Positions 2,157 to 56,410 of a DNA stretch of 64,000 nucleotides are shown here, one piece after another. How positions within the stretch are numbered: the stretch's first letter is position 1; each line of letters opens with the position of its first letter. Source of the stretch: Cyrtodaria siliqua (lineage: Eukaryota > Mollusca > Bivalvia > Adapedonta > Hiatellidae); the NCBI GenBank assembly GCA_037043455.1, contig JAWPHD010002614.1:1-64000 (forward strand), in the 5' to 3' direction. Below the pieces are notes generated by a model. It was given only the letters and a program-made list of their open reading frames with translations. It was not told the DNA's origin and searched no databases. Both the position numbers and the translations under genes were made by a program.

Positions 2157-2845
2157 CGAACAGGAAATGTAGCATTCAAGTAAAAACAATAATAGAAATC
2201 CACAATAAGTGAATATAATAGTCGAACAGGAAATGCAGCATTAAAGGACCACAGTCAACCAAAAACACGCACAGAAACAAACAACAACTACAAAGATGAA
2301 AAAAAGGCAAGATATGACAACGCAAACATAAAAGGGTTGACAATAGTGCTACCGCCTTGCAACGGTCAGTCCCAGAAAAAGGTTTCAGGTTCAATGGTGC
2401 ATCAAATCTCACTCTTACACTATTGTCATCCCAATAAAATGGGACAGTTTAAATAAATATATCCCCGCCAGGTTATACTCTCTAACAAACAAGGCAGCAA
2501 ATGATCATGTATATGACATAATATAAAAAGCAAAAGCCTAGTAAGCCACAAAGCAAGTAATCAATGACTTGGCAGAAGCCAGGGCAACAAGAAAACAAAC
2601 CGTTAAAGGTACGACAAGACAATTCTTAAGACAAACACAGGGTCCACAATATGTCCGCTCATCGCACAATCATAGAGGAAAGCATATAGTGGCGAACTGT
2701 AAAAGGGTCAACCACTAAACATGCAGTATGTTGCAAAATAATAGGCTCATAACCTTTTTTTGATAAACATTTAAACAAGTTTTATAAAGATTGTATGAGA
2801 GTGATTATGATCAAGGATCTTGCAAAGTATGTAAGTCACATCACC
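2157..2845 (-). mobile_element. Retroelement 3' end, truncated and degenerate
   Basis: This is a copy of the dispersed family seen in fuller form at 46,964-48,090, here in opposite orientation. Recognisable blocks, from its 3' end inward, are a start near GTCGAACAGGAAATGTAGCA, the GGTTGACAATAG and ACCGCCTTG...CGGTCAG words, and GTAAATAAAGAA-type words close to CCCGCC. Further inward, at 2,560-2,840, are segments corresponding to the last coding residues of the reverse transcriptase. It carries many indels, and I see no intact reading frame. Confidence 0.65.
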
Positions 2846-2869
2846 TCTCGCAAAATATGTAAATATAGA

Positions 2870-3510
2870 TACAGAAATCGAAAAGGAAAACCAGCATTCA
2901 AGGACGACAGTCAACCACAAACACACACAGAAACAAAGAACACATTTACAGATGAATAAAAGGCCAAAAAAGACATCACAAACACAAAAGGGTTGACAAT
3001 AGGGCTACCGCCTTGGAACGGTCAGTGGCAAAAAAAAGCCGCTGGGGGTTTAAACCAGGTTCTAGGGTGCACCAAACCTCACATTTACCCTACCATCAAC
3101 CCAATAAAACGGGAAAGTGTAAATAAAGAAATGAACTATTCTCCAACCAACAAGTCAGCATTAATAGGCAAAATAAGTAAAACACAAAGATGCTCGTGTT
3201 TATATAAATACAAAAAAACAATAGCATAGAAAGCCACAAAGAAGGTACTCAATGACTTGACAGAGCAACAAGAGAATAACCCACTGAGGGCACGACAAGA
3301 CAAGACTGCAGACAAACATCAAACTTCAACGGCATTTTGGGCTTTAGGTAGATGTAATCATAGGGTCCACAGCCTGTCCGGTCATCGCACAATTAAAGAG
3401 GAAAGCATAGTGGTTAACTGTAAATGTAAGTCATATCACCATAGAAGTCAGGTTGTGATAGTCCTTGTCGCAGATTACAACAATTACAAGCATAAATAAA
3501 AGGCACGGTA
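2870..3510 (-). mobile_element. Retroelement 3' end, second copy
   Basis: This is a second adjacent copy of the same family. It starts at AGATACAGAAATCGAAAAGG and includes the conserved 3'-UTR blocks (GGGTTGACAATAGGGCTACC at about 2,990; GCACCAAACCTCACATTTAC at about 3,070). It then runs into reverse-transcriptase C-terminal codons near 3,430-3,500, where the minus strand encodes a relic of the FYGD motif. Frameshifts and stops are present. The two copies may be nested or tandem insertions. Confidence 0.65.
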
Positions 3511-20759: not shown

Positions 20760-22311
20760 AAAGCATAGAAAAACACAGTTTATAAAGGAACATTTTTAGA
20801 CATTTTGGCTGTCTTCCCGTATGTAGCAAAAGCAACATGCGCATCATTACTCACAGAGCAGACACTTCTTATAGAAACAAACTTCGACTTCGAGTATATA
20901 CACGAATGCCGCCACTAGGACACATTGTTATTTATATACTAATATATTCGCATATATAGCACTGGACACGGTATTGTTATATACCAGAATTTCTCCACAT
21001 GTTTAGTTATAATATACCAAAATGTATCAATATGTAAGCACGGGCACAAAGACACCGTATACATCTTTTACCAATCTCTATTAATGATTAATTGGGAAAA
21101 AAACATTAGTTATGTAAGCTTTCCATAATCAAAACTCTGAGCCATGTATAATAAGCTATGACGTCTTGAAGAGAACACACGAAAAACGGAAATCAAACAA
21201 ACAATATCATGACAGGTAGAAGACAGATAATTATGTTCAAAACGCATGTTCCTCCATTTCCATGCTTCCGGATCATCACACTACACGTGCATGCCATAAC
21301 GGAATTAGTTGTTGGGTATCGATCTGATTCATCCGACGAAATGTCAGGCCGAGATTAACGAACCACAAGCAGCGGGAGTCACGTGAGGCGTGCACGGTAG
21401 CAAGCACTTTCCACTACCGTTCATGAACAATCAATCACATCTATACTGCACTATCTTTGTATTTATTGTTTTCGGCGTTTTCCAAATTTCTTCCTTCATA
21501 CCTTTTTTATATCAGCGTATATCGACGCAGTGTAAGTATAATTGAATAAAGTGCTTTGTAAACATGAGAAAAAGTGATAAATTGCTGACTATGTGATAAT
21601 TCCCCAAGCGACCATTTTAAAAGAAACCACGAAGCGGTATGTTGTTCTAAATATAATTTATGAAATAGGTTTTATAGAACAAACAAAAGTTTTATTTTCA
21701 CAATCATGCCATTTCCTTTTCCACGAGTTATAATGTCAACTTTATAAAAATCAACACTTAAGTTGTCACATGCTGTGCGAGGAGGGAGGGGTGGAAACAT
21801 TGAACGATAGAAAATGTCTGATACACACGATATTCATAATTATGTGATGTCATAGTTCTCAAGATGTCGGCTTTCATATCCGTTTCAGAAGAATAAATGA
21901 TCTTATCTTCTTTGTTTAAAATCTTGATTTGGATCATTATTTCACAAAAGCTTTTCAGAAATCTGAATTACCTTTTTAATAAGGCTTGCCAAATGACCAA
22001 TAACAACAGAGCCAATATGAATTCCCTTAATTCATGGCAATTTTATTACTTTTCGTTACCTGATTTTTCCCATGAATATGAAATAACTATATAACTGTGA
22101 CCAGTTCCTAATAACTGTATTGTATCATACAAGACAACATCAAAAATGTGTTAAACTTCAATCATAAGAAACCTGTTTAAAGTCTCTTAATTATTCCTGT
22201 TATATTGTATTCGCGAATCATTCCTTCTCCGAGATTTGAACTGGAAAACTGTAGGCAGATTTATCAGCGCGACAAAGAAATGATTAAAATAATGTCTTGT
22301 GTATTAGCTAC
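20760..22311. other. Unit 1 spacer, empty site of the 4-kb cassette
   Basis: 21,170-21,390 matches 45,930-46,160, 21,663-22,090 matches 48,095-48,520, and 22,095-22,300 matches 52,880-53,090. It therefore lacks both the 46,160-48,090 block and the 48,633-52,678 cassette of unit 2. No gene is seen. Confidence 0.6.
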
Positions 22312-22395
22312 GGAAGCCTATAGGTACCTTTTGAGTTATGACCTGTGACTTACGACTTATGATTACTACTGTTGACTTTGGACTTATGAAGCATG
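22312..22395 (-). repeat. Inverted copy of the 5,290-5,385 tract
   Basis: CCTATAGGTACCTTTTGAGT and the following ACGACTTATGA words are the reverse complement of the 5,320-5,378 (and 27,380-27,420) segment. It sits close to the end of unit 1. Confidence 0.6.
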
Positions 22396-23808: not shown

Positions 23809-23964
23809 CCAAGATAGTTTAAGTCGCTAAAACATCCGTTTTACAAATAAAAAGTGGCTTCAGACATGTGGGTATGATATAGGATGAGAAAATTAAGGAT
23901 TATTTGTATGGCCGTTGAATTTGACTTAGTTTATAATTGTCTTAACATAGTAATTTTAGCCTAA

Positions 23965-24370
23965 AGAAATGTAAAAAGATCGGACAGGGAAAGTAGCATT
24001 CAAGGAGAGGACAGTGAACCACAAAACACAGAAACAAACACGCAAACAGACAAACAAAAAGGCAAATATTAATAATAATTGCAAACGACATCACAAACAC
24101 AAAGGGTTGACAATAGGGCTACCGCCTTGGAACGGTCAGTGGCAAAGTAGGCCACTGGGGGTTTAAACCGGTTCTAAGGTGCACCAAACCTCACACTTAC
24201 CCTACTCTCATCCCATCAAAACAGGACAGTGTAAATAAAGAAATCCCCGCCATGATCTAATCTCTAACCAACAAGGCAGCATCAATAGGCAATAGAAGTA
24301 AAACACAAATATGCTCGTGTAAATATAATACAAAAAAAAACAATAGCCTAGAAAGCCACAATGAAGGTAC
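23965..24370 (-). mobile_element. Retroelement 3' end
   Basis: Typical 3'-UTR copy: AAGATCGGACAGGGAAAGTA, GACAATAGGGCTACCGCCTT, CTCACACTTACCCTACTCTC and GTAAATAAAGAAATCCCCGC. It stops near GAAGGTACC. Unit 1 has no insertion at the equivalent point (about 1,625), so it postdates the duplication. Confidence 0.8.
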
Positions 24371-24509
24371 CAAATAATACAAAAGCGACAAGTCACTATT
24401 CATAAGTCACAAGTCCCTAGTCACAAGTCATTAGTCAGAAGTCACTATTCACTAGTAACAAGTCAGGTTGCCATAAAAAGAAATTGCTAAGTGATTACTA
24501 ATTGCCAGG

Positions 24510-30256: not shown

Positions 30257-30802
30257 GTAAACGGGGCTGTGGACCCTATGATGACGCCTACCTAAAGTCC
30301 AATGGGACGGCGGCGTTTGATGTTTGTCTATGATCTTTCTTGTCGTGCCCTTAATGGTTTATTCTCTTGTTGCTCTGGCTTCTGCCAAGTCATTGAGTAC
30401 CTTCATTGTGGCTTTCTAGGCTATTGTTTTTTTTGTATTATATTTACACGAGCATATTTGTGTTTTACTTTTATTGCCTATGGATGCTGCCTTGTTGGTT
30501 AGAGATTAGATCATGGCGGGGATTTCTTTATTTACACTGTCCTGTATTAATGGGATGACAGTAGGGTAAGTGTGAGGTTTGGTGCAACCTAGAACCGGTT
30601 TAAACCCCCAGTGGCCTACTTTGCCACTGACCGTTCCAATGCGGTAGCAATATTGTCAACCCTTTTGTGTTTATGATGTCGTTTGCATTTATTATTAATT
30701 TTGCCTTCTTGTTTGTCTGTTTGCGTGTTTATTTCTGTGTTTTGTGGTTGACTGTCATCCTTGAATGCTACTTTCCCTGTCGGATCTTTTTATATTTCTT
30801 GG
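30257..30802 (+). mobile_element. Retroelement 3' end inserted in unit 2
   Basis: Begins inside the last reverse-transcriptase codons (CTGTGGACCCTATGATGACG), then the full 3' UTR: GGCGGGGATTTCTTTATTTA, GTGTGAGGTTTGGTGCAACC, GGTTTAAACCCCCAGTGGCC, TTGTCAACCCTTTTGTGTTT, and an end near TCTTTTTATATTTCTT. Unit 1 shows the empty site at about 6,200 (ACGGGTTTGGCTGGGG). The sharp right end, shared with other copies, fits 5'-truncated target-primed insertion. Confidence 0.85.
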
Positions 30803-39890: not shown

Positions 39891-39894
39891 CAAT

Positions 39895-40300
39895 ATAGAT
39901 ATAAAAATCGAACAGGAAAAGTAGCATTCAAGGACGACAGTCAAACACACAGAAAAACAAAGAACAACTATATATAAAAATGAATAAAAGGCAAAATAAG
40001 ACATCACAAACACACAAGGGTTGACAATAGGGTAACCACCTTGAAACGGTCAGTGGCAAAAAAGGCCGCTGGGAGGGGGTGGGGCATGAGGGGGGGGGGC
40101 GGGGTTGGGGGGTTGAACCAGGGTGCACCAAACCTCACACTTACCCTACTGTCATCCCAATAAAACGGGACAGTGTAAATAAAGAAATCCCCGCCATGAA
40201 CTATTCTTAACCAACAAGGCAGCATTAATAGGCAAAATAAGTAAAACACAAAGATGCTTGTGTATATATAAATACAAAAAAACAATAGCCTAGAAAGTTG
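39895..40300 (-). mobile_element. Retroelement 3' end
   Basis: Contains AAAAATCGAACAGGAAAAGT, GGGTTGACAATAGGGTAACC, GCACCAAACCTCACACTTAC and GTAAATAAAGAAATCCCCGC in order. A G-rich tract (40,070-40,115) expands the usual GGGGGTTTAAACC region. Confidence 0.8.
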
Positions 40301-46963: not shown

Positions 46964-47744
46964 CTCGATTTATTTCTCTCTTCTGAAAATGGAGAAATAA
47001 TTAGCAAAATCTATGACAAGAGAGATGATTTTAATTTTGATATTGTTAATTATTCCCATTTAGATGGGGATGTTCCCCAAGTAACTTCTTATGGGGTCTA
47101 TGTGTCTCAACTTATTCGTTTTTCCTAGGGCTTGTACTCGAGTTGAGGACTTTATTATTCGTAACCTTTGTATAACTAAAATGCTACTCTATCAGGGCTT
47201 CCGTTACCATAAACTTCGTAAAACCGATGCACACTTTTATATTGTAATCCTGATCTTCTTTCCAAACATAAAAGTAAATTTAAGAACTCTTCTGATACAA
47301 GGACTTCTATGGTGATGTGATTTACAAACGTAAGATCCTTGGTCTTGATCACTCACATACTATCTTTGTTAAACTTGTTAAAAGGCTTATCAAAATGAGC
47401 AGCGCTGTGGTCTAGTGGTAGAGCGTTGGACCCATGATCCAAAAGTCGTGGTTTCGATTCCCGTTATTGCCATATGCGTTGTGTCCCTGAGCAAGACACT
47501 TTATCTGCATTGCTTAGTACTGGTTCTACCCAGGAAGACATCGAGAGTGATTCAAATAAGTTCATAGAGCTTTCGTTACAATCGATGTAAAATAAATGTT
47601 TTAACTAAAAGAGGTTATGACCCTATCATTTTGCAACGCATTGCATGCTTGGTGGTGGACCGGTTTACAGTTCGCAACTATGCTTTCCTCTTTAATTGTG
47701 CGATGACCGGACAGGCTGTGGACCCTATGATGACGTCTACCTAA
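46964..47744 (+). pseudogene. Reverse transcriptase C-terminal relic
   Basis: Coding blocks in order: DLFLSSENGEIISKIYDKRD, DDFNFDIVNYSHLDGDVPQ, TSYGVYVSQLIRFS, then a +1 frame change, RACTRVEDFIIRNLC, GFRYHKLRK, a degraded QGL...FYGDVIY block, and after an inserted SINE KRGYDPIILQRIACLVVDRF with stop TAA at 47,742-47,744. I recognise this as the C-terminal (post-palm/thumb) part of a reverse transcriptase frequent in bivalve genomes, of a non-LTR or Penelope-like type. The catalytic core is not present. Frameshifts, a stop and the SINE make it dead. Confidence 0.8.
47396..47597 (+). mobile_element. tRNA-derived SINE inserted in the retroelement
   Basis: The head has an A box (TGGTCTAGTGGTAGAGCGTT) and a B box (GGTTTCGATTCCC). 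The anticodon arm TTGGA-CCCATGA-TCCAA reads CAT, i.e. Met-like. The body has GTCCCTGAGCAAGACACTTT, the same central domain as the SINE at 16,999. The T stem has mismatches, so it is not a tRNA gene. It separates reverse-transcriptase codons RLI and KRGYDP. Confidence 0.85.
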
Positions 47745-48094
47745 AGCCCAAAAGGACGGTGACGTTTGATGTTTGTCTGCAATCTTGTCTTGCCGTGCCC
47801 TCAATGGTTTATACTCTTGTTGCTCGGGCTTCTTCCTTGTCATTGAGTACTTTCCTTGTGGCTTTCTAGGCTAATGTTTTTTTTATATTTATATATATAT
47901 ATATATATATATACGAGCATCTTTGTGTTTTACTTATTATGCCTATTAATGCGGCCTTGGTGGTAAGATGGTTAGTTGGTTATATCATGGCGGGGATTTC
48001 TTTATTTACAATGTCCCGTTTTATTTGGATGACAGTAGGGTAAGTGTGAGGTTTGGTGCACCCTAGACCCTGATTTAAACCCCCGATTGATGAA

Positions 48095-48632
48095 AGTGAA
48101 CAAACCAAACGTTTGATTATCACGATCATGCATTCGGAAATTAAGTTTATTTTAATTTTCGACGAAACAGTATATAATGTTAGCTTTATACAGGGTGTCT
48201 AAAAAGCAATACTTAAGGTGTCAAAAATTGAGCGTTGTGAGGGAGGTGTGTTCTCAAAATGGCGGTTTCCATATCCGTTTCAGAAGAATCTTCAAATGAT
48301 TATATTATCTTTGTTTATAATCATGATTCGATCATTATTCAACAATTTCCTAGATTTTCAGAAATGTTAATGTCCAATAGAGCTTTCCGACTGACAATAG
48401 CTTCACGAATATAAATTCCCCATTATCATGATTTTGAAAGGCAATTTTCTTACCTTTCACTATGTCATTTGTCCCATGAATATGACATTAGTACCACTAT
48501 CAATATAACTATATTGACTGAAAACATAACTGTTATTAATTAGCAATGTAAAATAATACAATATATGTGTTTAACAAGAATACACATTGTGATATGTCAA
48601 GTAATGCATACATGACCAAATGACAAATACTA
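48095..48632. other. Unit 2 spacer, left flank of cassette
   Basis: 48,095-48,520 aligns with 21,663-22,090. The alignment decays at about 48,520-48,560, so the true left edge of the insertion may be up to about 100 bp outside the direct repeat. Confidence 0.5.
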
Positions 48633-48704
48633 AAGGACTCACGACACTATTATCTACCTTGAGTACTCCTGCCCTACAGATGATGGAGGTAGTCTAAAAA
48701 CATA
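48633..48704 (+). repeat. Left 72-bp direct repeat of the cassette
   Basis: Starts AAGGACTCACGACACTATTA and ends AGTCTAAAAACATA. 71 of 72 positions match the copy at 52,607; the mismatch is TATCTACC versus TATCTCCC. In this copy CTACCT and AGGTAG could pair as a small stem. Confidence 0.9.
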
Positions 48705-48919
48705 GTTCCCTTTTTCTGCTTTTTACAGGACTTTACATTGCACACATGGATTTATCTTTACCAGATGCTTAATCTACAGCATTTTAGGAAGAGATCACAG
48801 AAAATTTCATGTTGATATCAGCTTTCTAGCTAATTCTGTCTCATTTTAGACATCATGGGTCGAATCACCACATGTTGTAGTTTTGTCATATTGCTACGCC
48901 CATCTCGGTGTTTAAATAA

Positions 48920-49318
48920 GCCAACTCGCTGAGACCAGACTCTATCTATTACATATTGTACTCTAAAGTAGATCAGTCGTCTGTAAACAACAATTTAGGA
49001 TGTATGCTTTGGGATTCTGCTTATGGAAGCAAACAGAAGGATGCAGGAAGTCCCATGTATGGCAGGCAATGGATTACATATCCGGATGGTCATGTTGGAT
49101 CTATTCATGCCCATAGACTCATGTATATTTGCACCACAAGGCAATATTTGCCTCGTATTCCTGGTGTTATAGATGTTTCACATTTGTGCCATAACTCACT
49201 ATGCATTCGTTATTGCCATCTTTCTTTGGAACCACCAGCCATTAATTCTTGTCGAAAGAAATGTAAGAAAATGCAAACTTGCTCTGGGCATGCACATTCC
49301 AGAGACTGTATATTTTGA
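48920..49318 (+). CDS. Zinc-binding His-Me-finger (I-PpoI-type) endonuclease, 5' end incomplete
   Basis: Nuclease of the beta-beta-alpha-metal fold; the family cuts double-stranded DNA. Using the Leu codon at 48,956 as residue 1, the catalytic His is residue 76 in SHLCHN and the metal-binding Asn is residue 97. The first zinc site would be Cys16, Cys78, Cys83 and His88; the second is Cys103, Cys109, His112 and Cys118. The spacings His76-Cys78-Cys83-His88-Asn97 equal those of I-PpoI (98-100-105-110-119). All key residues are present, so it may be active. The frame is open from 48,920, but the first in-frame ATG (49,004) comes just after Cys16, so translation from it would lose a zinc ligand. 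An upstream exon or a non-AUG start is likely. The stop is TGA. It converges with the transposase. Confidence 0.8.
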   Translation, partial: ANSLRPDSIYYILYSKVDQSSVNNNLGCMLWDSAYGSKQKDAGSPMYGRQWITYPDGHVGSIHAHRLMYICTTRQYLPRIPGVIDVSHLCHNSLCIRYCHLSLEPPAINSCRKKCKKMQTCSGHAHSRDCIF

Positions 49319-49331
49319 GGTGATTTTTGAT

Positions 49332-49378
49332 AATTATTTTTTACCCCACCCACTCATGTTAACATGTAAAAAATAATT
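49332..49378. repeat. Hairpin between the convergent genes
   Basis: AATTATTTTTTAC (49,332-49,344) and GTAAAAAATAATT (49,366-49,378) are perfect inverse arms around a 21-nt loop, 13 bp after the endonuclease stop. It may help form the 3' end of the plus-strand transcript; this is inference. Confidence 0.6.
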
Positions 49379-49497
49379 GTCCCCAAAAATTAGATTACAT
49401 GCTTATTAAGACAGGAAAGTATCATTTAATATTATATATGGTACTTATCGCATGCTTATTTATTTATTTGTCCTGGTTACGAATGTATGATCTTACC

Positions 49498-50142
49498 CTA
49501 GTGACGCGAACCTAACGTGTCTAGCATGCCTTTTTTGTAGGTATCGGCTTGATGGATTTCATCATATTTGTTGAAATTTGCCACCCTTCTCATGAATCTG
49601 TCGCGTTTAAATTTGGGAGTTGATTGACGCTCTTTATGGTAATCGTTTCTGTCTTGTATATTTTTCAGGACCTTGACTGTTTTCGTGTTGTTGGGAATTG
49701 GAACCCCTAACGCTGTCATCTTCGCATTTGCTCGACCCTCGTTTACACGAAGACCTGCACTAAACTTGCGTGCCTTAGCATTTCTTGGGTAAGTAGTGTC
49801 TTTAGGATTTGATACATTGCATGCTCTGTTTATGCTTTCAATTTTGTTGGTGCTGCTTTTGAAGCGAGTCTTGGATAAGCTGTCTGGTCCTAACCGTAGT
49901 GCCATTATTGCATTCTTGACTAGCAGGCGGTCATTATTGTTCATTGCAAAACATTTAGCATTGCCCGGAATGAAATCCATCATCCAGTTAAAAGGAGACT
50001 TTCCAGAGCATACAAATGATTGTCTTGAGCAGGTTGTTCCACAACAACCTGAGTAGCATTCTAAAATTGATTGCGTGATGCCAGGTGAGTATTTGTTCAT
50101 TTTCTCTAAGTCTCCATCACATGCAGAATGCAGACTTGAAAA
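49498..50142 (-). CDS. Mutator-like transposase, C-terminal part
   Basis: This is the same reading frame as the upstream part, separated from it only by the TAA at 50,143-50,145. The first ATG after the stop is at 50,100, giving 200 residues. Counting from that ATG there is a Cys cluster (residues 15, 19, 20, 24 and 31), an SPFNWMMDFIPGN block (35-47), RLGPDSLSKT (69-78) and STNKIESINR (83-92), whose Glu88 is a candidate third catalytic acidic residue. NPKDTTYPRN (98-107) and ALGVPI (130-135) follow. These blocks match the C-terminal half of bivalve Mutator-like (PF20700-type) proteins as I know them. The tail is Lys/Arg-rich. AATAAATAAATAA lies about 35 nt after the stop on this strand, a probable poly(A) signal. 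Confidence 0.8.
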   Translation of the reverse strand, partial: FSSLHSACDGDLEKMNKYSPGITQSILECYSGCCGTTCSRQSFVCSGKSPFNWMMDFIPGNAKCFAMNNNDRLLVKNAIMALRLGPDSLSKTRFKSSTNKIESINRACNVSNPKDTTYPRNAKARKFSAGLRVNEGRANAKMTALGVPIPNNTKTVKVLKNIQDRNDYHKERQSTPKFKRDRFMRRVANFNKYDEIHQADTYKKGMLDTLGSRH

Positions 50143-51441
50143 TTATAAATTAACTCGGTGGGACATATCACGCGCAAAGCGACTCTGTAGGTAAGTTCGG
50201 TGTTTCTTTGTAGTACTCATGAACATTTCTTCGCTAAAAGATATGGATTTCAGTCGGTTGAGGAGCCTCTTAATCAAGTGAGTTATGTCGGCTAGTCGCT
50301 CTGTGGTTGCATTATTAGAGTATTCTAAACTTGCCGCCAACACTTCTTTGTGGGCCTGACTGTCACCATCTGTAGTCAATTTATCAACAAATATTGGCTG
50401 CTCACTTTGAAGGATATTGGACATGAGTCTGTGAGCTTCCCTGTTCTCATCACCTATAACAGCAGATTCATGTAAATTGTTCTTTTGTCCACATTTGAGT
50501 TTGTTTCCAAATGTCATGGCTATGATTTTCTGATGTTTTGTGCATTGTTCCACCATTGTACTTACTACCTGAGTGGCTGGCTGATGTGGCGTTCTTTCTC
50601 CAGCCGAGCGCAGAGCATTGTTATACTGGCTGTCGATTGCAGCCGGAATTCCGTGCTGTGGTGAAAGACCACATGCTTCGTTAAGAGTACGTAGTTGTTG
50701 GCGCACACGGGCAAAACCAGCCTTCGCAACCTTTTCAACCGTGTCCGCTACAGTATTGCTTCGTCTCTGCATACCGCTTTCGGCTGGTGGTACTGTATGA
50801 AGGCTTGTCATCAGGAAACGCATTGATGAATTCCCAATAGGTGTATCCATACATGCTGCTGGGAGTGAAAAGTTGATGTTAGCAGCATTTGGTCCCCATT
50901 TTGGGGTGTGAATTTCTTCATACAGGTGATAGCTTTTGCTTTTAAATCCACAGACAGCACACACTAAGCGTTCGCGCCAAGCGAAACCCCATTTGACTTC
51001 GTATGACAAGTCAAATTTCAGCTTCTCATTACAAGTCAGTCGATATGTGCGATGACTAATATACGACTCATAGAACATGTCCTCAGTCTTTCCAAAATGA
51101 AAAACACGGTAAGTGTTCAACTCAGCAGAATTGGCAGCAGATTCCTTATCTTCTATGGAGAACACGGCTTTCTCTATTAGAGATGGCTCGGACTGGTGCG
51201 GTCGCAGTATGGTAGAATTGGGCACCTGCGTGTGAATACTTCCAAATTTCTGCATACCGGTGGTGTCATCCACAGTGAACGTACTGTCAAATAGACCTTG
51301 GTCTAATCTGATGTAACGTTGTTCTTTGTCAATATTTCTCCATCTTTCACTGTCTTTTTTCAGCCTTTTCTCACAAACACCACGTTGGAAGAAGCAAGAG
51401 TTGTTGCACTTTTTATTCTGATGTCTATTAGAACGTGCCAT
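50143..51441 (-). CDS. Mutator-like transposase, N-terminal and catalytic part (432 aa)
   Basis: The start ATG at 51,441 is in context TTAAGAATGGC. The N-terminus is Cys/Lys-rich (residues 1-35, perhaps DNA-binding). WGFAWRERLVCAVCGF (151-166) holds a CxxC knuckle (161 and 164), followed by LYEEIH. CMDTPIGNS (197-205) and the PPAESGMQRRSN stretch (218-229) are conserved in the family. Catalytic candidates are Asp270 in AAIDSQYN, Asp358/Asp360 in TTDGDS and His388 in ADITHL. In relatives I recall, the corresponding motifs are DGRYN, TTDGD and ADPTHL. The family catalyses cut-and-paste DNA transposition. The frame ends at TAA (50,143-50,145), but homology continues in the same frame for over 200 codons, so this is a nonsense-interrupted gene or one needing read-through. 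No other lesion is seen in about 648 codons. Confidence 0.85.
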   Translation of the reverse strand: MARSNRHQNKKCNNSCFFQRGVCEKRLKKDSERWRNIDKEQRYIRLDQGLFDSTFTVDDTTGMQKFGSIHTQVPNSTILRPHQSEPSLIEKAVFSIEDKESAANSAELNTYRVFHFGKTEDMFYESYISHRTYRLTCNEKLKFDLSYEVKWGFAWRERLVCAVCGFKSKSYHLYEEIHTPKWGPNAANINFSLPAACMDTPIGNSSMRFLMTSLHTVPPAESGMQRRSNTVADTVEKVAKAGFARVRQQLRTLNEACGLSPQHGIPAAIDSQYNNALRSAGERTPHQPATQVVSTMVEQCTKHQKIIAMTFGNKLKCGQKNNLHESAVIGDENREAHRLMSNILQSEQPIFVDKLTTDGDSQAHKEVLAASLEYSNNATTERLADITHLIKRLLNRLKSISFSEEMFMSTTKKHRTYLQSRFARDMSHRVNL

Positions 51442-51897
51442 TCTTAATTCCTTTTTGAATTATGTTTTTCTTGTAGAAATGTTTTCTCAAGTATGGTAAA
51501 CAAATAGTTTTCACCAAGTTTGCTCTGTTGTTGTGTTTATCTCCTAGGAAATTGCACAGGAAACACATGTGTGTATGATGTCATAATTACGCCAAACCTT
51601 TTATTGTCAATTTTAAGCATGTCATTATATTTGGCGTACTTTTTTTTACAGAAGATCATACAGTCCTATTATATTGTTATGCATACTTTTATGTATCATT
51701 TGTTAACCTTGTTTTGTGTTTTCTTTGTAGAAACTGATGGAAGAACAGCTGGAAGATTAATTTTGCATAAAAAAAAAAATATATATAAAAAAAAGGCTGT
51801 TTATATGTATTCACAGCTTTGGAAATTGAATTTTGATCGATAACCACCAATACTATCATTTCCCTGCAAATTTATTCATTTTTGTCAAACATGAATA

Positions 51898-52570
51898 TGC
51901 TTAGCATCTTATTTTCAGACAGTGTTACACTTGTTTTTGTATCTCTGAAGGTTTTAGACATGTAAGGACAAAACTGACCAAGTTATTAAGAAATCCCTTC
52001 AGTGTATGTATAGGTATTTTAAGGTATCTTCATATTGCAGGAATAAACTGAATTTTACAGGACACCACGTTTCACTAAAAATTGAATATTTTCAGAACCA
52101 AAACAAGTATAAACATAATTTTAGCTTTATTTTACAGCTATTGGATTGTCATTCAATCACACGTATCAATGAAGAGAGACTTCTTTCAAAATATGTAAAC
52201 ATTTAGGCGAAGGATCGATACTTTTCCCAGAAAATCAGATTTCGAGGGTGACCCTTATTTTGATTTAATCATTGCAGCATTTTTTTCAATATATATTTTT
52301 TTAACCCATTTTCATGCTATTTTCAGACAAAGAGAAACCTTTTCATGTATTTCTGAGAGTTTCAGACATATATAAGCACAAATAACCAAGAAAATGCAAA
52401 ATCCCTACCATCACTGCAGATTTTCAGTTTTCCAAATATTAAAGGTACTCTGCCTAAATTTTGACCGTTACCCTAGGTCAGTAAAATTTGAATAATTTTA
52501 GAACCATTAAAAATGGAATCAAAAGTTTTGCATTGTTTAGCTTGAAATTGATTTCTATACAATTTGTATT
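51898..52570 (+). repeat. Diverged internal direct repeats of the cassette
   Basis: Two blocks of about 200-250 bp, spaced about 410 bp (51,898-52,200 and 52,310-52,570), share ATTTTCAGACA, TCTGA-GGTTT-AGACAT, ACCAAG and ACTAAAAATTGAATATTTTC-type words in the same order. They lie upstream of the transposase, between its start and the right 72-bp repeat, where a promoter or transposase-binding sites would be expected. Confidence 0.55.
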
Positions 52571-52606
52571 TTTATTGAAGTGCTCATTTGAAAAAAAAAT
52601 CTCCTT

Positions 52607-52678
52607 AAGGACTCACGACACTATTATCTCCCTTGAGTACTCCTGCCCTACAGATGATGGAGGTAGTCTAAAAACATA
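52607..52678 (+). repeat. Right 72-bp direct repeat of the cassette
   Basis: Copy of 48,633-48,704 with one substitution, 3,974 bp away. Here the sequence lies in an open frame reading RTHDTIISLEYSCPTDDGGS; the left copy has a stop after the repeat, and coding is not supported. Confidence 0.9.
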
Positions 52679-53277
52679 CTTGAAAAGGCAATGTTCAGTT
52701 AATTTATTGAATGCGGTATATAGTTTATTTATATATATTTGTATTAAATTAACATTTGACATGCACCCATTCTGAAACTTGAAATAACAAACTTAAACAA
52801 TCTTTAATGGTATTGTAAAAAGGAAATGATACATTTACAACACCGCACATTTTATTCAGTATAAAACTTGACAAATTCCTAATTACTATCATTATACTGT
52901 TTTATATAATTCAACATCACATATGTGTCTATCGTAAGACACCTTTTTAACTTCTCTTAATTATTCGAGTTATATTACATTGCTTCCCCGAGACAGAAAC
53001 CGGAAAATTGTTTGCAAATATACCAACGAGACAAAGAAATCAGTATAATAATAATGTCGTCTACTTAGTGTGTTAGCTAATGTAGTCTATAGTCAAATGG
53101 AAAACCGATGAAACGAGAAAAACGAGAAACAAAGATATATAAATATAGCAATGAATACGTAATATTAACATTAACGAACACCGACGCGTTGCATTAAATA
53201 AACGTGTTACGTTCACTTGAAGGTAGCAAGAAAAATAACGATAATTCATTTTTATATCTTCATTCCTTTCAATGTAT

Positions 53278-56009: not shown

Positions 56010-56410
56010 AAAAGAAAGATATAAAAATCGGACATGGAAAGAAGCATTCAATGGTGACAGTCAACCACAAATCACAAAAAAAACACGAGCAAACAGACAA
56101 ACGAGAAATCAAAAGTAATAAAAAATACAAACGACATCACAAACACAAAAGGGTTGACAAAAGGGCTTCCGCCTTGGAACGGTTAGTGGCCAAAAAGGCC
56201 ACTGGGGGTTTAAACCAGGTTCTAGGGTACACCAAACCTCACACTTACCCTATTGTCATCCCAATTAAATGGGACAGTGTAAATAAAGAAATCCCCGCCA
56301 TGAAATATTTTCTAACCAACAAGGCAGCGTTAAAAGGCAATATAAGTAAAACACCTAGGTACTCGATGACTTGGCCAAAGCCAGAGCAACAAGAGTCCCT
56401 GAGAGGTTAA
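56010..56410 (-). mobile_element. Retroelement 3' end
   Basis: Typical copy: AAAAATCGGACATGGAAAGA, GGGTTGACAAAAGGGCTTCC, GGGGGTTTAAACCAGGTTCT, GTAAATAAAGAAATCCCCGC. It ends in the ACTCGATGACTTGGCCAAAG block near the reverse-transcriptase side. Confidence 0.85.

Follow-up and report, generated by a model that had tools for sequence, protein, structure and literature searches.

Layout and decay of the window copy

We characterized a candidate mobile element in a 64,000-nt window of the Cyrtodaria siliqua genome by comparing it with the species' own assembly (2.88 Gb in 26,948 contigs; the window is part of contig C2614). An I-PpoI-type nuclease frame and a convergent transposase gene lie between two 72-bp direct repeats (48633–48704 and 52607–52678) that are identical at 71 positions, as a preliminary description of the window had reported. 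The ungapped match between the repeats extends to 78 nt (48630–48707 and 52604–52681, 96% identity, BLAST E 8e-30). The same description had the repeats exactly bracketing the gene pair. They do not mark the ends of the element but are remnants, 265 and 73 bp long, of 467-bp long terminal direct repeats (LTDRs); the element itself, at 48635–52681, is one damaged copy of a transposon that is multicopy in this genome. The real size of the repeats, a stop codon in the transposase and the loss of the nuclease start had all been overlooked.

The left LTDR (48635–48899, plus strand) is preceded by the four bases TAAA and retains positions 1–265 of 467, with 98.5% identity to the LTDR of the full-length copy L040; its start is the left 72-bp repeat. 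A 53-bp stretch (48900–48952) then replaces about 379 bp of a second full-length copy, L039 (48899 corresponds to L039 position 784 and 48953 to 1164), and what is missing is the remainder of the left LTDR and the start of the interior, including the start of the nuclease. The nuclease frame (48956–49318, plus strand) and the transposase (49498–51441, minus strand) are followed by the non-coding right part of the interior (51442–52604), which contains a diverged internal duplication (51905–52157 and 52313–52563, 64% identity). A TTAA stands at the interior–LTDR joint (52605–52608), as in other copies, and the truncated right LTDR (52609–52681, plus strand) comprises positions 1–73 of 467 only, at 98.6% identity; it corresponds to the right 72-bp repeat. 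The gap between the convergent genes also holds a 16-nt hairpin (49329–49381, 94%, 21-nt loop).

The nuclease frame matches PF05551 with 39.1 bits against a cut-off of 27. Aligned to I-PpoI, it retains the catalytic His and Asn and reproduces the spacing of H98, C100, C105, H110, N119 and C125, which bears out its earlier assignment as a His-Me-finger endonuclease of the I-PpoI type. It lacks the upstream ATG starts of its relatives, whose reading frames encode 136 aa (L039) and 157 aa (L040); counted from its first ATG, the window nuclease would be 104 aa long.

The transposase gives a PF20700 match of 136.4 bits on the minus strand. Two open reading frames listed there form one 647-residue frame, interrupted by an in-frame TAA at 50143–50145. 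When read through this stop, the match covers residues 112–470 with 148.9 bits and reaches position 356 of the 357-position model, so the TAA interrupts what is otherwise one unbroken domain. The E of NKIES, which is the final catalytic acid, lies beyond the stop. In L039 the transposase frame is uninterrupted (644 aa), and in L040 it is not. From its sequence, the window copy is probably dead: the transposase stops before its last catalytic residue, the nuclease start is lost and both repeats are truncated, so this copy should not move by itself. After inserting, it would have lost most of the right LTDR, together with the part of the left LTDR that adjoins the nuclease start and that start itself.

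The copy lies within a large diverged tandem duplication, in which 328–22323 and 23092–53092 share same-order blocks of 68–91% identity about 22–25 kb apart; more blocks resembling this duplication occur from about 53500 onward. The first tandem unit had been described as lacking the 4 kb, and its paralogous stretch (21855–22323, plus strand) does align without the insert and without the repeat. The identity there is only about 70%, and at least about 57 bp to the left and 181 bp to the right remain unaligned beside the repeats, so this alignment leaves the exact insertion point unsettled. A dispersed repeat, several hundred base pairs long, is found in both orientations at 2222–3424, 23964–24373, 30265–30800, 39892–40297, 47593–48084 and 56011–56365, one copy being directly left of the element. 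No RNA family was found in the element region at E 1, the predicted fold of the window repeat was no better than those of shuffles, and no relatives were found in viral and prokaryote collections.

Relatives, ends and target duplications

The window repeat is present at 40 or more places in the genome (40 scored of 348 candidates). We read 30 of these loci, on 22 contigs, with up to 1.5 kb on either side; they are the top-ranking matches to the left repeat of the window copy, not a random sample. A full 467-bp LTDR was found in 29. Two full-length copies, L039 and L040, are 4772 and 4782 bp long, with LTDR pairs identical at 462 of 467 and 465 of 468 positions. These two copies show that the window repeat is how a terminal direct repeat of 467 bp begins. 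Over a long shared stretch, each is about 97% identical to the window copy. We had also entertained a mollusc-wide SINE-like motif as the source of the window repeat, and dropped it once the 467-bp LTDR appeared.

Interior sequence flanks the repeat on both sides in nine loci, on the left only in 11 and on the right only in five; four are solo LTDRs and one is the window copy. The nine repeats that stand between two units behave as joints, in line with the proposal that the direct repeats act as recombination or attachment sites. Within about 1.5 kb of the repeat, transposase sequence was found in 26 of the 30 loci and nuclease sequence in 15, with spacing as in the window. If a pair of dispersed 72-bp repeats had merely come to lie around unrelated genes, one would look for the repeat without the genes, which the preliminary description had named as an observation against its own proposal. 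Such gene-less solo LTDRs do exist (4/30), but the recurrent association with both genes at window-like spacing makes a chance pairing negligible in our judgment.

The LTDR of the window family begins GGACTCACGACAC and ends GTGGTGTGAGACG. Its own inverted ends agree weakly, at 9 of 13 positions, and its termini are GG...CG, so that the 3′ end departs from the 5′-RR and YY-3′ pattern. Inside elements of this family, TTAA borders each repeat. Both ends could be read in six insertions, and the target duplication is exact in three of them (L040 TTAA, L023 TATA and L024 TATA), with a one-base offset or mismatch in the other three (L039, L026 and L010); these 4-bp duplications come from relatives, the window copy's own being unreadable. 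The feature is a real mobile element, as had been claimed. A search of the window copy for inverted repeats at the ends of some smaller element, one without the endonuclease, returned a best match of 30 against a shuffle mean of 27.8, and 21 of 100 shuffles did as well.

Neighboring units share one repeat in the arrays L041 and L044. The tandem units of these two arrays are 3.0 kb long; the middle of the transposase is absent (window 50265–51558) and the nuclease is kept. Since units at the two loci differ by at most 0.5%, this form has spread recently. At another locus (L042, 800–1738), a solo LTDR has inserted in inverted orientation within another LTDR, at about position 149.

Further families sharing the gene pair

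Four more families of this genome carry the convergent transposase–nuclease pair, making five in all. Long direct repeats were demonstrated in one of the four (hereafter the second family), and one repeat copy was seen in another (family C). The second family (the L045 array, L046 and L047) has the same layout with 465-bp LTDRs. Comparison of L045 with L040 gave no DNA match, and relative to the window its transposase and nuclease are about 30% and 34% identical. The LTDR pairs of both monomers (L046 and L047) agree at 464 of 465 positions, with inverted ends matching at 9 of 11 and termini GG...CC that follow the RR/YY pattern. Thirteen loci of this family were inspected and both ends were read in nine; four of these have exact 4-bp duplications (C464 AACT, C8088 ATCT, C515 ATCT and C3425 ATCA), two have an ATAT duplication offset by one base (C559 and C297) and three have no target duplication (C900, C12414 and C22149). 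A low-complexity repeat adjoins the nuclease gene (L045 1470–1759, L046 1156–1580), and its length varies between units.

A PF05551 profile search of the genome found at least 150 places (scored of 1353 candidates), some in long arrays, including a nuclease array on C3166 that advances in 3324-bp steps. We read the best 30 nuclease loci, on 21 contigs, nine of them on C2286. All but one (L067) have a transposase within 1.5 kb, convergent in all 29 cases, which confirms that the two genes belong together. By comparison, the best eight PF20700 places of the genome (L001–L008) carry a transposase of a different type.

The 30 nuclease loci fall into three more families, A, B and C. Eleven of the 16 family C loci have a 461–462-bp repeat in front of the nuclease, with inverted ends matching at 17 of 18 positions and termini GG...CC, again following RR/YY. 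Joints between two interiors (INT-INT) occur near position 1213 in five of the 16 loci, all on C2286 (L073, L074, L076, L080 and L085), and there the repeat and its bordering TTTA and TAAA are both gone. Since the paper that describes KolobokP transposons (Kojima & Bao 2022, Mob DNA 13:24, PMC9587614) reports losses of only 3–4 bp at INT-INT joints, the loss on C2286 looks larger.

Thirteen nuclease residues do not vary between I-PpoI, the window copy and the five families (S97, H98, C100, H101, C105, H110, L111, E114, N119, R122, C125, C132 and C138), even though the nucleases of the five families are only 26–38% identical to each other. A core kept over such deep divergence argues that the nuclease does something useful to the element. 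Within the window family, 14 unique nuclease sequences hold 6 synonymous and 16 nonsynonymous distinct changes, and the ratio of 0.84, which has little power, gives no sign of constraint at this depth.

The spread of the nuclease bears on how the two genes came together. MuDR elements have long terminal inverted repeats and 8–11-bp target duplications. A single hitch-hiking of a homing endonuclease gene into a true Mutator (MuDR) element would account for the name of the Pfam model, which is Mutator. It would have to be reconciled with 4-bp duplications, with a window copy in which long inverted repeats were not found beyond shuffles, with a nuclease present in five families and with the published placement of such transposases in Kolobok (PMC9587614); we regard it as very improbable. 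Hitch-hiking of the endonuclease into a transposon had been offered as an alternative; one recent event of this kind is unlikely because the nuclease is common to five families of this genome that have diverged from one another. The transposase had been called Mutator-like: the convergent PF20700 match stands, but the superfamily is Kolobok, not Mutator, because its target duplications measure 4 bp and its motifs match those described for Kolobok.

KolobokP and the proposed role of the nuclease

Judged against the published description, we are nearly certain that the window feature is a decayed copy of a KolobokP transposon, and it agrees with that description in nearly every feature compared. 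According to the paper (PMC9587614), KolobokP elements follow the order LTDR-INT-LTDR, their direct repeats measure about 450 or 660 bp, and the LTDRs carry their own perfect or imperfect terminal inverted repeats of 11–18 bp. The termini of Kolobok elements are 5′-RR and YY-3′, and target duplications are 3–4 or 4–5 bp in KolobokP, as compared to TTAA for Kolobok at large. The DDE transposase contains the C/DxxH motif. One zinc finger lies between its second D and its E, and another, a CCHC finger that is almost invariant, follows the first D. Solo LTDRs, multimers of the form (LTDR-INT)n-LTDR and INT-INT joints are reported; the paper counts 228 families across seven phyla and finds bivalves rich in them. 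Its authors further suggest that nuclease cuts at the repeats set off unequal crossing-over. The proposal of a new element type does not survive, as the architecture, the gene pair and the idea of a nuclease acting at the repeats were in print in 2022 (PMC9587614).

The window-family transposase carries the D of IDSQYNN, the D of TTDGD, DITH, a Cys-rich finger and the E of NKIES, and the Cys finger corresponds to the one described between the second D and E. A CCHC finger after the first D is not recognizable in the window family, where an automatic alignment leaves one Cys; the same alignment shows it clearly in family A and the second family, but only in part in B and C.

The ends, short duplications, solo repeats, arrays and loss of repeats from arrays are all observed in this genome. 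Given the ends and the duplications, the transposase would cut the outer inverted ends of both LTDRs and insert the entire unit, duplicating 4 bp of the target. Under the published model (PMC9587614), the nuclease would cut within an LTDR or next to one, and arrays and solo LTDRs would follow when the break is repaired from an LTDR out of register. Alternatively, both could come from ordinary homologous exchange, between LTDRs or by way of LTDR-INT circles, with the nuclease uninvolved, a competing explanation that we consider somewhat less probable and by no means negligible: arrays and solo repeats are seen here, while cutting by the nuclease is something that we infer.

Divergence between units speaks to both explanations. 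Second-family units within one array are as divergent (6 of 1636 positions) as copies at other loci (4–11 of 1636), in keeping with ordinary exchange. In the window family, units differ at 3 and 6 of 3013 positions within arrays, as compared to 10–15 of 3013 between two arrays, which favors local duplication and fits either type of exchange, induced and spontaneous exchange not being told apart. The preservation of the nuclease core in five families argues against an uninvolved nuclease.

One version of nuclease-driven exchange would be particular to the window family. In most of its copies, the joint between the interior and the right LTDR reads CTCCTTAAGGACTC, with the core CTTAAGG, which is the core of the I-PpoI site as well. 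This correspondence makes the joint a candidate cut site of the nuclease, in the window family only. I-PpoI leaves a TTAA overhang, according to the published text (PMC9587614). Family C has no such joint sequence, which weakens the joint-cutting reading. On the fullest form of this reading, the window family would be a KolobokP branch not described before that has given up its CCHC finger, and its nuclease would cut this joint, free an LTDR end and so drive array growth; this appears to us improbable.

The discovery of a new kind of element does not stand, and what we have is a useful confirmation of a published kind. A window found blind lends independent support to the architecture described for KolobokP, in a large genome where long arrays and at least five families of this kind occur, and these elements supply material to test the proposed role of the KolobokP nuclease.

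Compared to KolobokP as published (PMC9587614), the elements share direct repeats of about 450 bp with short inverted ends, an interior with a DDE transposase and a convergent I-PpoI-like nuclease, 4-bp duplications, solo repeats, repeat-sharing arrays and INT-INT joints. The window family differs in its 3′ terminus (CG rather than YY) and in the unrecognizable CCHC finger after the first D, and the window copy itself is truncated and interrupted. With I-PpoI, a His-Cys box homing endonuclease (PDB 1a73), the nucleases of the five families share the 13 invariant residues, including H98, N119 and zinc-site residues, but they are only 16–27% identical to it over aligned residues and reside in a transposon, not in a group I intron. 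Mutator (MuDR) has a related DDE transposase fold and the C/DxxH motif, in the terms of the same paper (PMC9587614), but its duplication length and ends differ. Finally, bacterial IS26-type pseudo-composite transposons (PMC9587614) likewise have directly repeated end modules around genes and form tandem arrays; their end modules encode the transposase, whereas here the interior encodes it.
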